Origin: Lacticaseibacillus kribbianus | GTDB taxonomy: Bacteria; Bacillota; Bacilli; Lactobacillales; Lactobacillaceae | Assembly (NCBI RefSeq): GCF_020180945.1 | Contig: NZ_JAIPUL010000001.1 | Location: 1,178,001-1,242,000, forward strand | Length of the DNA stretch: 64,000 nt | Direction of reading: 5' to 3' | Notes under the pieces: generated by a model | What the model was told of the DNA's origin: nothing | Seen by the model: only the letters and a program-made list of their open reading frames with translations | Database searches by the model: none | Part shown: one piece after another, positions 642 through 63,295 of the stretch | Layout of the letters: every line of letters starts with the position of its first letter | How positions within the stretch are numbered: the stretch's first letter is position 1 | Program-made: the position numbers and the translations under genes

Positions 642-970
642 AATGAGCCTCCTATGTGTTTCATGCGTGTAAGTGCTGTAAGTCTGAAAGCGGGCGTTAG
701 CGGAACCGAAATTACCATGGAACCGCTTTACAAGGATTAGTCTAGCCCCCGTTCACGGTTTTGACCATATCCGCATCTATCCTGATTGTTTCCCAAAACT
801 GACAAAACTGTACCAGTCAACAACAGTGAGGTGTCTCCCATCCCCTCCATTGTCCGCCCCGACTGCACCGCGGGCAAGAAATCTGCCTGATGCTAGGCAG
901 TTTGATCATCGCCTTACTGCACGCTGGCCGGTGGCCTAAGCGCGCCGCGCTGCGCCCTGGGTAAAAAAAA
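642..970. other. Intergenic region between pox and ISL3 copy 1
   Basis: No credible gene. It holds the pox ribosome binding site (647-652), two direct GGAACCG heptamers 17 bases apart (702-708 and 719-725) in the presumed pox promoter area, a small hairpin (CTGCC..GGCAG, about 883-901), a partial copy of the terminator-associated repeat (911-960) and the A8 target duplication of the IS (963-970). Confidence 0.6.
911..960 (-). repeat. Terminator-associated hairpin repeat, locus A (partial unit)
   Basis: Read on the minus strand, this begins CCAGGGCGCAGCG and continues with GCTTAGGCCACCGGCCAGCG, matching the first half of the ~120-base repeat unit found complete at 15559-15680. The second half with the GCACTTT-loop hairpin is missing or too decayed to recognise. 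Before ISL3 copy 1 inserted, the box started two bases past the T8 tract of the terminator of the transporter gene at 2449-3381, the same arrangement as at the other loci. Confidence 0.65.
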
Positions 971-971
971 G

Positions 972-1026
972 GGTCTACACTTTCTGGTGTTGGAGAATTC
1001 CAACGCCGAGAGTGTAGACCTTTTTT
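972..1026 (+). terminator. Inward-facing terminator at the left end of ISL3 copy 1
   Basis: GGTCTACACT pairs with AGTGTAGACC (1011-1020); the inner part (GTGTTGG with CCAACGC) extends the stem with one bulge. TTTTTT follows at 1021-1026. It would stop transcription entering from outside before the transposase gene; part of the terminal inverted repeat forms one arm. Confidence 0.7.
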
Positions 1027-15327: not shown

Positions 15328-15356
15328 ATTCTACAAAGGCCCCGGGGAGATTGCAA
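15328..15356 (-). promoter_or_regulatory. oppA promoter
   Basis: TTGCAA, 17-bp spacer, TAGAAT on the minus strand, 47 bases upstream of the oppA start. Confidence 0.65.
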
Positions 15357-15391
15357 GGCGACACGCGGTGGCGACTGGGGTCGGCGCTGCA

Positions 15392-15680
15392 CACGCACAC
15401 CGCTCGTCCTGCTATGTGTACCGCGCGCCGCTCTGATTCGTCGAGCTGCGAAGCGCAGCGGCCGCTCGTCCTGCTAGGGAAGGCACTCGGGGCCAAGTAC
15501 GCCCCAAGCGCCTTCCCTACGCTGGCCGGTGGCCTAAGCCCGCGCTTCTCCGCTCTGGTTCGTCGAACTGCGAAGCGCAGCGGCCGCTCGTCCTGCTAGG
15601 GAAAGCACTCGGGGCAAAGTGCGCCCCAAGCGCCTTCCCTACGCTGGCCGGTGGCCTAAGCCCGCGCTTCTCCGCTCTGG
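15392..15680 (-). repeat. Terminator-associated hairpin repeat, locus B (two full units plus a partial)
   Basis: Minus-strand units of exactly 122 bases lie at 15559-15680 and 15437-15558, with a partial third to about 15392. Each begins CCAGAGCG or a variant and ends TTCGACGAA-like. The hairpin cores are at 15608-15630 and 15486-15508; the first folds as TAGGGAAGGCGCTTGGGGC around loop GCACTTT, and all differences between its arms are G-U compatible. The box starts six bases past the U-tract of the acpP terminator. With the oppA promoter and that terminator, this accounts for the whole 15282-15725 gap. Confidence 0.8.
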
Positions 15681-15685
15681 GACTC

Positions 15686-15713
15686 AAAAAGCCGCCCCGG
15701 AAACCGGGGCGGC
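15686..15713 (-). terminator. Intrinsic terminator of plsX-acpP
   Basis: Minus strand GCCGCCCCGG-TTT-CCGGGGCGGC followed by TTTTTG. Confidence 0.9.
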
Positions 15714-15725
15714 CGCAGTGTTTGC

Positions 15726-15971
15726 TTATTTTTTCTGGTGATTCAGGACGTACTGGACGGCATCGCCGACGGTATCGATGTGTTCGGCATCTTCGTCAGG
15801 GATCTCAGCGCCGAAAGTATCTTCAAGCTCAAGGACAAACTCGACGGTGTCGATGGAATCGGCATCCAGGTCCTTCTTGAAGTTCAAGTCGTTGGTGATC
15901 TTATCTGCTGGGGTCTGGAAATGATCCTCAATCAGGCCAGCGATCTTATCAAATACTTCTTGCTCAGTCAT
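15726..15971 (-). CDS. acpP: Acyl carrier protein
   Basis: 81-residue carrier of growing fatty acyl chains. DLDADSIDTVEFVLELEDTF contains the DS(I/L) motif; Ser39 takes the 4'-phosphopantetheine. The protein is strongly acidic, as expected. The start at 15971 (MTEQEVFDK) follows GGAGGAGCC; longer in-frame starts are not conserved. It lies 79 bases downstream of plsX, forming a phospholipid-synthesis pair, and ends in a strong terminator followed by the repeat array. Confidence 0.95.
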   Translation of the reverse strand: MTEQEVFDKIAGLIEDHFQTPADKITNDLNFKKDLDADSIDTVEFVLELEDTFGAEIPDEDAEHIDTVGDAVQYVLNHQKK

Positions 15972-21739: not shown

Positions 21740-21755
21740 CCTCCCGAGCACGTGA

Positions 21756-21782
21756 GGCCACCCCAAGCGGGTGGCCTTTTTT
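21756..21782 (+). terminator. Intrinsic terminator of rpmB
   Basis: GGCCACCC-caag-CGGGTGGCC followed by TTTTTT. The first repeat box of locus C begins five bases later. Confidence 0.9.
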
Positions 21783-21786
21783 GTTT

Positions 21787-22221
21787 CCAGAGCGGAGTGC
21801 GGCGGGCTTAGCCACCGGCCAGCGTAAGGGCAGCGCTTGGGGCGCACCTTGGCCCGAGCGCTCCCCTAGCTGGACGAGTGGGCGTTGCCGCACGGAGCTC
21901 GACGTTTCCAGAGCGCAGCGGGGCGAACTTAGCGGGATGGATTGCCTAGCCGGGGAACTTGGGCCGCACTTTGGCCCGAGCCCCCCGGCGTAGCAAGCCA
22001 CTCCCGCGTTGCCCCGCGGAGCTCGACGATGCCAGAGCGCAGCAGGGCGCATTTAACGGGATGGATTGCCTAGCCGGGGAACTTGGGCCGCACTTTGGCC
22101 CGAGTCCCCCGGCGTAGCAAGCCACTCCCGCGTTGCCCCGCGGAGCTCGACGATGCCAGAGCGCAGCGGCGGCGCACTTACCGACGGTTTGCCCTGCCAA
22201 GCTCGACGACCAGGGCGCACC
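21787..22221 (+). repeat. Terminator-associated hairpin repeat, locus C (tandem array)
   Basis: Units start with CCAGAGCG at 21787, 21908, 22032 and 22156, and a stub with CCAGGGCG starts at 22210. The spacings are 121, 124, 124 and 54 bases. Units 2 and 3 are nearly identical, which suggests recent duplication. Cores lie at 21836-21858, 21958-21980 and 22082-22104 (CTTGGGCC-GCACTTT-GGCCCGAG in units 2 and 3). The flanks of each unit also pair (GCGGGGC near the start with GCCCCGC near the end), so each unit is one long imperfect palindrome. The fourth unit lacks the core. With the two flanking terminators, the array fills the 21740-22287 gap between convergent genes. Confidence 0.85.
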
Positions 22222-46880: not shown

Positions 46881-46995
46881 CTTGTGCACCTCCTGTTGCC
46901 CGTAGGCTAATTCCCCTGAGGACTCGCCAAGCCGGGTGCTAAGCTTTGAAACCCGGCGTTGCGCGGTTGCAGATGAGGGGTGACAAATACAACGT
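46881..46995 (-). promoter_or_regulatory. Structured leader of rplU (L21 leader-like)
   Basis: The ~115-base untranslated region contains a hairpin with arms GCCGGGT and ACCCGGC (46931-46957 on the plus strand) and a run of conserved-looking bases before the ribosome binding site. Position and size fit the L21 autoregulatory leader known in Bacillota; assignment is by position and fold only. Confidence 0.5.
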
Positions 46996-47424: not shown

Positions 47425-47696
47425 GCGCCGGCCGGTGGCCCAACCGTCTCGTCTAGGCTACCCGTCACGCTAAGTGCGCGCTTCTGCGCCGTGGGATCGT
47501 CGAGCTACGCGGGGCAACGCCGGTTCGTCTAGCTAAGCCAACCGGCTAAGTGCGCCCCGCTGCGCCCTGGATTGTCGTCGGGCTACGAAGCGCTACGCGG
47601 GAACGGCTTGCTACGCCAGGTCTCTCGGGCCAAAGTGCGGCCCAAGCGCCCTGCCTAGGCAACCCGTCACGCTAAGTGCGCGCTTCTTCGCCCTGG
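47425..47696 (-). repeat. Terminator-associated hairpin repeat, locus D (three degenerate units)
   Basis: Minus-strand units begin with CCAGGGCG at 47696 and 47570 and CCACGGCG at 47494; lengths are 126, 76 and about 70 bases. Only the first has the core (47624-47646, CTTGGGCC-GCACTTT-GGCCCGAG). The second retains the outer arms (GCACTTAGC, GTTGCCCCGCGTAGCTCGACGA) but lacks the core. The first box starts four bases past the U-tract of the cytochrome b5-like gene's terminator. With two terminators, the array fills the 47346-47784 gap between convergent genes. Confidence 0.8.
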
Positions 47697-47699
47697 TAC

Positions 47700-47730
47700 A
47701 AAAACAGGCGGCGCCATGATCGCGCCGCCT
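47700..47730 (-). terminator. Terminator of the cytochrome b5-like gene
   Basis: AGGCGGCGC and GCGCCGCCT arms, followed on the minus strand by GTTTTTG. Confidence 0.85.
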
Positions 47731-53669: not shown

Positions 53670-53751
53670 GTCTGCCTCCTCGCACGGCTGGCCGTGCATG
53701 CCCAGTCTACCACAAGGCGGCGCGCCACCCCAGGACCCGAGGCGCGGACCC

Positions 53752-53844
53752 GACTAGCGACGCTTTGGCACTCGGGGGCATAGTGCGCCCCAAGTACCGT
53801 TGCTAGGCTACTCGACCCGCTAAGTGCGTCGGCTTTCGCCCTGG
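53752..53844 (-). repeat. Terminator-associated hairpin repeat, locus E (one unit)
   Basis: Minus strand CCAGGGCG at 53844, then GCACTTAGCGGGTCGAGTAG, core CTTGGGGC-GCACTAT-GCCCCCGAG (53771-53794) and outer arm. The outer stem pairs TAGCAACGG with a matching tail. The box starts about five bases past the U-tract of the exporter operon terminator. Confidence 0.75.
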
Positions 53845-58313: not shown

Positions 58314-58434
58314 CCAGGGCGGAGCTGGGCGCACTTAGGCAACCGGCTAGCGTAAGGTAACGCGTTGGGCCGCACTTTGCCCGATGCGTTACCTTAGCTG
58401 GACGCGTTGCCGTTGCCCCGCGGAGCCCAACGAC
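58314..58434 (+). repeat. Terminator-associated hairpin repeat, locus F (one unit)
   Basis: Starts CCAGGGCGGAGC, core near 58364-58385 (GTTGGGC-cGCACTTT-GCCCGAT) within a long stem TAAGGTAACGC..GCGTTACCTTA that is almost perfect. It ends with CGTTGCCCCGCGGAGCCCAACGAC. At this locus it is the end of the unit, not the CCAG box, that adjoins a terminator (the gpm-family gene's, ten bases away). With the promoter/operator, it explains the 58142-58483 gap. Confidence 0.75.
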
Positions 58435-59790: not shown

Positions 59791-59955
59791 CCAGGGCGGA
59801 GAAACACGGGCTTAGCAGATCGACTAGCCTAGCTCGGATACTTGGGCCGCACTTTGGCCCGAGTGACTTGGCGTAGCAAGACGCACCGGCGTTGCCCCGC
59901 GGAACCCGACGACCAGGGCGGAGAAGCACGGGCTTAGCAGATCGACTAAGGCCGT
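59791..59955 (+). repeat. Terminator-associated hairpin repeat, locus G (one full and one core-less unit)
   Basis: Unit 1 spans 59791-59912 (122 bases) with core 59841-59863 (CTTGGGCC-GCACTTT-GGCCCGAG). Unit 2 starts CCAGGGCG at 59913 and repeats GAAGCACGGGCTTAGCAGAT of unit 1. It then jumps to CTAAGGCCGTGC, leaving a short hairpin without the core. It runs up to the end of the next gene on the minus strand. Confidence 0.8.
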
Positions 59956-62596: not shown

Positions 62597-63217
62597 ATGA
62601 CCAGCTTACCCCGCCGTGACCCAAGCACCGACCCACTTTTGACCCCGGAAAATTCGGCTCTGCTGGTGATCGACTACCAGCCCACCCAGATTGAATCGAT
62701 CCAGTCGATGCCCCACCCGCAGCTTTTGCAAAACGTGGCGCTGACCATCCGCCTCGCGCGGCTCTACGAGGTGCCCATCGTGCTGTCCACCGTCAACGTC
62801 GCCACCGGCCGCAACCAAGACACCGTCCCCGCACTGCGCCGCCTGATGCCCGACGTGCCGAGCCTCGACCGTACCAGCATCAACGCGTGGCAGGACCGCG
62901 AGTTCCTGGCCGCGGTCCACGACCTCGGCCGTCCGCACCTCGTGATGGCCGCCCTGTGGACCGAGGCCTGCCTGACCTTCCCGGCGCTCGACGCGCTGCG
63001 CGAGGGCTACCAGGTCCACCCGGTGGTCGATGCCGTGGGCGGCACGTCGACCCTCGCCCACGACACCGCGCTGGCGCGCCTGGGCCAGGCCGGCGCCGGC
63101 CTGATCACCAACGCGCAGCTGGCCTGCGAGTGGCAGCGCGACTGGAACCGCACCGCAACCGTGCCCGAGTTCGTCGACCTGCTGGCAGCGGCGGGCGACT
63201 TCGTGAAGCTGGACTAA
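62597..63217 (+). CDS. Isochorismatase-like hydrolase, YcaC type
   Basis: 206-residue cysteine hydrolase. SALLVIDYQPTQIESIQSM gives the catalytic Asp, ALWTEACLTFPALDAL the catalytic Cys. RTSINAWQDREFLAAVHDLG, DAVGGTSTLAHDTALARLGQ and LACEWQRDW match YcaC rather than nicotinamidase or isochorismatase. The natural substrate of YcaC proteins is unknown. The conserved catalytic Lys position near RTSINAW reads Arg here, by eye. AGGAGGTGTTACC precedes the ATG. Confidence 0.88.
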   Translation: MTSLPRRDPSTDPLLTPENSALLVIDYQPTQIESIQSMPHPQLLQNVALTIRLARLYEVPIVLSTVNVATGRNQDTVPALRRLMPDVPSLDRTSINAWQDREFLAAVHDLGRPHLVMAALWTEACLTFPALDALREGYQVHPVVDAVGGTSTLAHDTALARLGQAGAGLITNAQLACEWQRDWNRTATVPEFVDLLAAAGDFVKLD

Positions 63218-63218
63218 A

Positions 63219-63250
63219 CCCAGAGCGGCGCAAGGCGCTCTTAGCGGGAC
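63219..63250 (+). repeat. Possible deleted hairpin-repeat unit, locus H
   Basis: Starts CCAGAGCGGCGC and continues GGCGCTCTTAGCGGGAC. The CCAGAGCG box and CTTAGCGGGA segment match the first third of repeat units in locus C. The last part forms the left arm of the following terminator. Confidence 0.4.
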
Positions 63251-63274
63251 GCAGCCTTTGTGTCCCGCGTTTTT
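63244..63274 (+). terminator. Terminator of the YcaC-like gene
   Basis: GCGGGAC-N11-GTCCCGC followed by GTTTTTG. Confidence 0.8.
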
Positions 63275-63295
63275 GTGCGTCCCCCCGCCCGCGAC

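Follow-up and report, generated by a model that had tools for sequence, protein, structure and literature searches.

Eight loci in the DNA stretch analysed here (the window: 64,000 nt of the 2.79-Mb genome of Lacticaseibacillus kribbianus, 64% GC) carry members of a family of repeats that are probably short, non-autonomous mobile elements of Lactobacillaceae, recognised by their structure and docking at gene ends. The unit is about 122 nt long and is repeated head-to-tail, with 1 to 8 copies per array, and the right (3') ends of arrays are truncated units of varied length. In this genome the units mostly begin with CCAG. Units of the CCAG type end in CGACGAT, in which GACG reads CGTC on the other strand, and the other types end in CGTTTTA or CGTTATG. 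RecG relatives place the genome in the genus Lacticaseibacillus, with L. parakribbianus (genome G010, matched to it at 100% over 3,959 nt) as the nearest species (89% RecG identity).

The window was searched by iterative nhmmer and then with a covariance model (CM) built from 68 units of the same genome. The preliminary description had listed seven loci, and nhmmer found the unit at all of them, with the CM confirming the full units. It had also placed six of the seven just past a terminator U-tract, which agrees with the gaps of 2, 5, 4, 3, 4 and 5 nt measured at 960, 15680, 21787, 47696, 53844 and 59791, respectively. The lone exception among the seven is 58314, where a T-run lies at distance 13 under a looser rule and the locus is not terminator-flush under the final rule. 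At 911–960 the CM gave no match, and nhmmer found only the beginning of a unit. The eighth locus, at 63220, was absent from the earlier list. The features of the window are as follows.

920–960, minus strand: isolated 5' piece of a unit, its first ~41 nt (nhmmer), 2 nt past a terminator T-run.
966–1026, minus strand: terminator hairpin before this fragment (inverted repeat 966–984/1008–1026 and T-run).
15350–15436, minus strand: probably a decayed partial unit, last (3') in the array that follows an ACP-like gene (weak CM match, E 0.34, and sequence).
15437–15558, minus strand: full unit 2 of this array (CM 124.4 bits).
15559–15680, minus strand: full unit 1 of this array (CM 121.5 bits), 5 nt past the terminator T-run.
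15690–15714, minus strand: intrinsic terminator of the ACP-like gene 15726–15971 (gene named by reading).
21754–21778, plus strand: intrinsic terminator of an rpmB-like gene (named by reading; missed by the gene finder).
21787–21906, plus strand: full unit 1 of the array downstream of the rpmB-like gene (CM 105.9 bits).
21908–22030, plus strand: full unit 2 of this array (CM 117.2 bits).
22032–22154, plus strand: full unit 3 of this array (CM 109.6 bits).
22156–22210, plus strand: unit lacking its middle part, then a short partial unit that runs to ~22221 (CM 31.3 bits and sequence).
47436–47493, minus strand: partial unit at the 3' end of an array (nhmmer).
47496–47570, minus strand: internally deleted unit (CM 66.3 bits).
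47574–47696, minus strand: full unit (CM 113.2 bits), 3 nt past a terminator T-run.
47706–47730, minus strand: terminator hairpin preceding the 47436–47696 array (inverted repeat).
53727–53844, minus strand: single diverged unit (CM 46.7 bits), 4 nt past a terminator T-run.
58314–58434, plus strand: single unit, antisense to both called neighbours (CM 117.2 bits).
59791–59913, plus strand: full unit (CM 74.1 bits), 5 nt past a terminator T-run.
59913–59948, plus strand: partial unit consisting of the 5' arm, 3'-most in this array (nhmmer).
63220–63291, plus strand: truncated unit that follows the stop codon of ORF 62666–63217 at 2 nt (nhmmer 63220–63252; CM E 0.03).

To the window were added 20 evenly placed stretches of the genome (L150–L169), giving a sample of 464 kb in which nhmmer detected 64 full and 17 partial units in 35 arrays. 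Extrapolation gives about 385 units and 211 arrays for the whole genome. Their density was uneven: seven of the 20 stretches (L150, L157, L159–L162 and L168) contained no arrays according to nhmmer, the CM seeing one 46-nt piece in L161, and four C4 stretches contained 13. In a first draw of 60 genomes the CM matched 26, the L. kribbianus genome included; these were 26 of the 30 genomes of the genus and none of the 30 others. G008, G011, G019 and G025 gave no match at E 0.001. A family-wide draw yielded matches in 16 of 201 genomes and 8 of 40 genera, eight of the 16 carriers belonging to Lacticaseibacillus. Among named species, for which the CM search covered 39 of 80 RecG loci, the carriers included L. 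daqingensis, L. jixianensis, L. hegangensis, L. suilingensis, L. suibinensis, L. manihotivorans and L. zhaodongensis, together with one species outside the genus, Lapidilactobacillus luobeiensis. Copy numbers per genome are lower bounds, as at most 150, 59 or 17 candidates per genome were scored with the CM. Queried with one unit, plasmid and phage collections gave no match, and four pattern scans of viral contigs returned 0, 0, 1 and 1 contigs, both lacking a CM match.

No Rfam family matched the unit; the four matches at L010, to miRNA and snoRNA families, were far below the gathering score. The only Rfam match in the window reaching that score was a ribosomal protein L21 leader at 46909–46978 on the minus strand. 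The literature searched names no family of this kind either, in agreement with the preliminary description. Five unit sequence strings led to no paper, a result that excludes subscription papers and is no proof of absence.

The unit folds into a single rod of 44 model pairs. From the base upwards it comprises P1 (4 pairs), a 3x3 loop (GGA/GNA), P2 (7 pairs), an asymmetric loop with CTTA, a long helix, and a cap loop with CTT. In the units of the L. kribbianus genome, 92.4% of cells were paired and 34 of the 44 pairs showed double changes, a level reached in none of 500 shuffles. The covariation score was 0.486, against 0.179 in shuffles, with 520 versus 158 double-changed cells, and sliding the partner by 1–3 columns lowered pairing to 30%–42%. 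For 75 distinct units from other genomes, whose alignment was fitted to the model and thus leans toward the structure, the corresponding values were 93.2% of cells paired, 42 of 44 pairs double-changed, a covariation score of 0.910 versus 0.199 and 1,218 versus 331 double-changed cells. Many unpaired positions are conserved in these 75 units (for example a third-position A in 62, a loop G in 72 and a loop T in 74), and others vary. Conserved unpaired positions combined with free but paired arms fit a model of recognition by shape. Coding function was rejected by argument, since units of 119–128 nt with indels keep no frame.

Folding energy by itself does not pick the strand in every case: the z-scores of three window units were -5.6, -6.5 and -6.6 on the element strand and -2.9, -3.2 and -7.2 on the opposite one. 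At model pairs, G-U outnumbered A-C by 192 to 48 in the L. kribbianus genome and by 155:33, 46:2 and 9:1 in other groups, the sequences being related and therefore non-independent; two conserved wobble pairs supplied part of this excess (47 and 23 cells in the L. kribbianus genome). Because A-C on the element strand corresponds to G-U on the other strand, the excess identifies the element strand as the one that folds. It does not separate RNA from DNA, since G-T is tolerated in single-stranded DNA as well.

The preliminary description had associated the family with terminators on the basis of the window, and this held across the genome sample. Among 67 arrays whose left end is intact, 38 began 0–6 nt after a terminator T-run, compared with 2.45% in a null of random intergenic positions (11,979 position-strands; binomial P 3e-43). 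The gap between the T-run and the unit was 4 nt in 15 arrays, 5 nt in 10, 3 nt in seven, 2 nt in three, 6 nt in two and 0 nt in one. The T-run was directly followed by G at 37 of 38 array terminators versus 82 of 124 others, and by GT at 24 of 38 versus 19 of 124 (P 3e-8). The second class comprised 16 of the 67 arrays, which were flush with a stop codon (null 3.65%, P 2e-9): 13 began within 4 nt of the stop codon, and in three the stop was completed by the first bases of the element. Such completed stops were allowed for the arrays and not in the null; the strict count of 13/67 gives P 8e-7. The 67 arrays were the top-scoring matches together with an unbiased sample. Three of 70 distinct arrays were left out for low score, two of them fragments in the window (920 and 63220) and the third in L158, and weak or 5'-truncated arrays are under-represented in the set. 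Both the null and the background set of 124 terminators rest on gene calls made by a simple codon-score method, which found 406 genes in the 464-kb sample and misses small genes (the gene ahead of 21787 is an example). The hairpin cut-offs also differed slightly, being -6 for array terminators and -8 for the others.

Neither target was found at 13 of the 67 arrays. By eye, a Shine-Dalgarno region adjoins three of them, which are antisense (L154, L165-7775 and L169), weak terminators may precede two others (L017 and L023), and a further one is the window locus 58314. In other genomes, a crude rule assigned six of 52 loci to the antisense Shine-Dalgarno class and left 27 of 52 in none of the three classes. 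Some copies are thus antisense and abut a Shine-Dalgarno region, so the targets exceed terminators. Arrays occurred on both strands of one window, which shows that their orientation follows the genes and not the replication fork; fork orientation as an explanation was rejected.

The two edges of the arrays behaved differently. The left end was almost always intact, the first matched model position being 1–4 in 69 of 70 arrays. In a mirrored test, none of the 67 right ends was exactly flush; with a slide of up to 60 nt allowed, 13 of 67 met an antisense terminator, which leaves the right side with some relation to gene edges. These data bear on the possibility that the units land anywhere in neutral intergenic DNA and that later deletions trim the intervening sequence up to a functional edge. 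Flush positions at several kinds of edge (terminator, stop codon and antisense Shine-Dalgarno) fit such trimming, and the truncated right ends show that deletion occurs. Against it, none of the right ends was exactly flush and the left ends had almost never lost bases; the T-run-GT bias is unexpected under trimming. We regard untargeted insertion with trimming as improbable.

Another proposal of the preliminary description, a backup terminator, is weakly opposed by the data. In a comparison of nine array-flush terminators with 124 others, the former were not weaker (T-run 5.6 versus 4.9, P 0.08; hairpin energy -17.5 versus -17.9, P 0.93), and the unit lacks a U-tract.

The position of the arrays could also reflect a functional 3'-UTR RNA, in which the rod is selected in cis because it protects mRNA 3' ends, blocks read-through or stalls ribosomes. 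Selection would then keep the place at the gene end and copies would spread by gene conversion, comparable to what was proposed for the E. coli REPs located near stop codons. The sense orientation, flush with stops and terminators, is in line with such an RNA, as are the covariation and the G-U excess. Arrays are also rare between divergent genes, where one lies of the 31 arrays whose two neighbours were both called, versus 46 of 192 intergenic regions longer than 100 nt, according to crude gene calls. On the other hand, 38 of 67 arrays lie past a terminator, where little transcript should reach, and the terminators that bear them are not weaker. In other genomes, some copies are antisense and precede start codons (for example at three of seven G027 loci), with the folding strand remaining the same in G027 (46:2).

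Comparison with the sister species bears on the same question. Twenty-five L. kribbianus arrays could be placed in the 788 kb of L. parakribbianus sequence searched, some placements containing long unaligned stretches. Nine of these sites had recognised units in both species, as a functional RNA would predict, and 16 had no recognised unit in this nearest relative, contrary to it; one of the latter, L019, was counted as empty and yet keeps a remnant. We consider a functional 3'-UTR RNA unlikely. Reading of the printed sites showed that the target is present at nine of the 16 unit-less ones: a terminator at L048, L012, L051, L044, L151 and L029, and a stop codon at L013, L152-10386 and L166-10373. 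Two of them, L051 and L029, contain a different repeat in place of the rods.

The second repeat, of about 455 nt, was also seen in L. parakribbianus at L070:9551-10003, after the ACP-like gene, and carries promoter-like boxes and its own terminator. Seven places in the 788 kb matched it over at least 290 nt and others over shorter lengths. At the ACP-gene, L051 and L029 sites it occupies slots where the L. kribbianus genome has rod arrays. No match was found in the 464-kb L. kribbianus sample, and none above chance in Rfam. At the rpmB-like and ACP-like loci the terminators differ strongly between sister species, compared across the named species, though the genes align well, while other loci keep a recognisable terminator.

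Eight shared loci had full units in both species, and unit identity there did not exceed 0.80, save for two leftmost units (0.96 at L164-18788 and 0.93 at L165-12281). The low identity at shared loci indicates that places persist while units turn over. Within multi-unit arrays, 88 of 140 units were closer to a unit in another array than to any in their own. Linkers matched the local left flank over a mean of 1.03 nt versus 0.53 nt expected (55 arrays, 0 of 5,000 permutations as high); the match covers 1–4 nt, has no defined length and is missing in many arrays. Growth at the left edge, with the youngest units leftmost, was unsupported. Neither the CM score (first minus last unit 2.1 bits, 49 arrays, P 0.60) nor nearest-relative identity (P 0.35) showed younger leftmost units, and at two of the loci shared with L. 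parakribbianus the leftmost unit is the conserved one (96% and 93%), which argues against simple left-edge growth.

The clearest sign of recent spread is a set of near-identical copies in G093, a genome of another genus. It has at least 10 copies, 87%–100% identical, of which six (L263–L268) are 97%–100% identical. Conservation sets in abruptly with the unit's first base; the left flanks differ except in being rich in A, and in roughly half of the copies the shared sequence continues into a trailing hairpin. Under the crude rule, two of ten copies lie within 15 nt of a stop codon, one abuts an antisense Shine-Dalgarno sequence and seven belong to no class. One gene at L063 (G001:C26, L. daqingensis), read by eye as NAD(P)H-hydrate dehydratase in the same way as the ACP and rpmB names, lies between two oppositely oriented rods, both behind almost identical terminators; this layout may be an assembly duplication.

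The preliminary description had also offered a non-autonomous mobile element targeting terminators. Its mobility is the best-supported option, given the unit-less sister sites, the exchange of units between loci, the T-run-GT preference and the precise left versus ragged right edge. Its target proved to be wider, with stop codons as a second class.

Known movers were sought in the array-rich genomes. The Y1 transposase (PF01797) was absent from G000, G010, G001 and G093; it was present in 13 of 30 genomes of the genus and 5 of 10 others tested. This largely refutes, for these genomes, the view that the units are REP/BIME-type repeats moved by a RAYT (Y1) transposase. Like REPs, they are palindromic, abundant and downstream of genes, and a share of E. 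coli REPs is also close to stop codons (446 of 4,072 within 15 nt; PMC12306157). The unit, however, is three to six times as long as a REP, and its copies form head-to-tail arrays instead of the mostly inverted REP dimers (PMC3733652). We consider this origin very improbable.

A retro-element related to group IIC introns would share the kind of target, since these introns insert after terminator stem-loops at a TTGT-type motif (PMC7923331), which resembles the T-run-GT found here. No reverse transcriptase (PF00078) was detected in G000, G010, G001 and G093, no group II intron (RF00029) in any of six genomes, and the rod has no intron-like anatomy, so this origin is largely refuted too and retains very little probability.

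IS110 (PF01548) was found in three of seven genomes (G000, G001 and G093) and was absent from the array-rich G010. In G000 it is a relic of 100 aa whose locus yielded no rod. Of the four copies in G093, three lie beside a rod block (L294:1015-2812, L294:6543-8362 and L293:383-2250), two of them directly after the T-run of the trailing hairpin and one about 7 bases before the rod; the rod at L293 carries an insertion and is missed by the CM. The fourth copy (L295) has no rod within 3 kb. This IS110 looks like an element choosing hairpin or T-tract sites, rather than moving rods. RAYT, reverse transcriptase, group II intron and IS110, the four families searched, were thus rejected as movers for the L. 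kribbianus genome.

Returning to the mobile-repeat reading, targeted insertion accounts for the data better than do tolerance and trimming. The young G093 copies do not show it, seven of the ten belonging to no class by the crude rule. Targeted insertion is favoured by the precise left edge, the T-run-GT bias, the empty sites with the target present, the mosaic arrays and the short flank match. A putative enzyme would recognise the plus strand in its folded state, whether RNA or single-stranded DNA, together with a gene-end target, and would insert units repeatedly at the same edge or convert existing ones. Arrays would persist because the gene's 3' edge tolerates them. As a tentative proposal, the rods may be the visible part of an undescribed insertion system of Lactobacillaceae in which a folded single strand, RNA or DNA, is recognised by shape and brought to gene ends (the T-run-GT of terminators, and stop codons), in sense and repeatedly at one site, independently of a Y1 transposase or reverse transcriptase. 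Several facts stand against the mobile-repeat reading. The four mover families searched explain nothing in the array-rich genomes, sharing at nine of 25 loci could mean retention by function, and no target class accommodates 13 of 67 arrays or, in other genomes, 27 of 52 loci.

If the mobile-repeat reading holds, a single genome contains hundreds of insertions that mark gene ends almost to the base; to our knowledge, no short bacterial repeat has been reported to do so. It would also raise a testable question, namely by what means an element that brings no enzyme locates terminators and stop codons. Arms that vary freely and yet stay paired would present a strong case of structure-only selection, and the conserved loops point to a putative binding protein. 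Many genes of Lacticaseibacillus, a genus that includes strains used in food and as probiotics, would have their 3' ends shaped by the arrays, which could find use as markers for distinguishing strains or as tools for insertion specific to gene ends.

Among known repeats, REP/BIME/REPIN elements (GTAG, CGTC) are alike in being short, palindromic and intergenic, in having many copies, mostly downstream of genes, and in that some lie near stop codons and are plausibly transcribed (PMC3733652, PMC12306157). The family described here differs in its ~122-nt rod versus a REP palindrome of 20–40 bp, in its head-to-tail arrays, in precise docking past terminator T-runs and in the absence of a Y1 transposase from the four key carriers (G000, G010, G001 and G093). 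REPs carry an unpaired tag, GTAG or CGTC, at one end; here GACG, which reads CGTC on the other strand, occurs near the end of CCAG-type units, and the other types end in CGTTTTA or CGTTATG. The string "lactobacill" is absent from PMC3733652, PMC12306157 and PMC10969869. BOX elements of Streptococcus pneumoniae are likewise interspersed repeats with tandem copies and a predicted folded RNA, but have distinct boxA and boxC ends around boxB copies, whereas here there is one unit family whose arrays end in a truncated copy; the source consulted on BOX does not describe docking at terminators (PMC3049150). MITEs, among which Bcr1, RUP, ERIC and EFAR are classed (PMC3733652), are also non-coding, non-autonomous, located next to genes and 70–300 bp in size. 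Unlike the rods, whose arms vary with compensation and whose structure is conserved, they have terminal inverted repeats of 15–30 bp read by a transposase; the resident IS families searched in the carriers were Y1 and IS110. Where a MITE has a target site duplication, the linkers here show the flank match of 1–4 nt, above permutation and of no defined length. The insertion site of group IIC introns, after a terminator stem-loop at TTGT, has its counterpart in the 38 of 67 terminator-flush arrays with GT at 24 of 38, but the rods contain no ribozyme domains and no domain V (RF00029, 0/6), and the four key carriers have no reverse transcriptase. Derivation from a bridge-RNA element of the IS110 type is at odds with the absence of the transposase from G010. 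Integron attC sites, as in CALIN arrays, are imperfect hairpins at gene 3' ends that are recognised as folded strands; they recombine as the bottom strand and have RYYYAAC/GTTRRRY boxes and the IntI integrase. Unlike attC sites, the units described here have no gene cassettes between them, and their folding strand lies in sense with the upstream gene.
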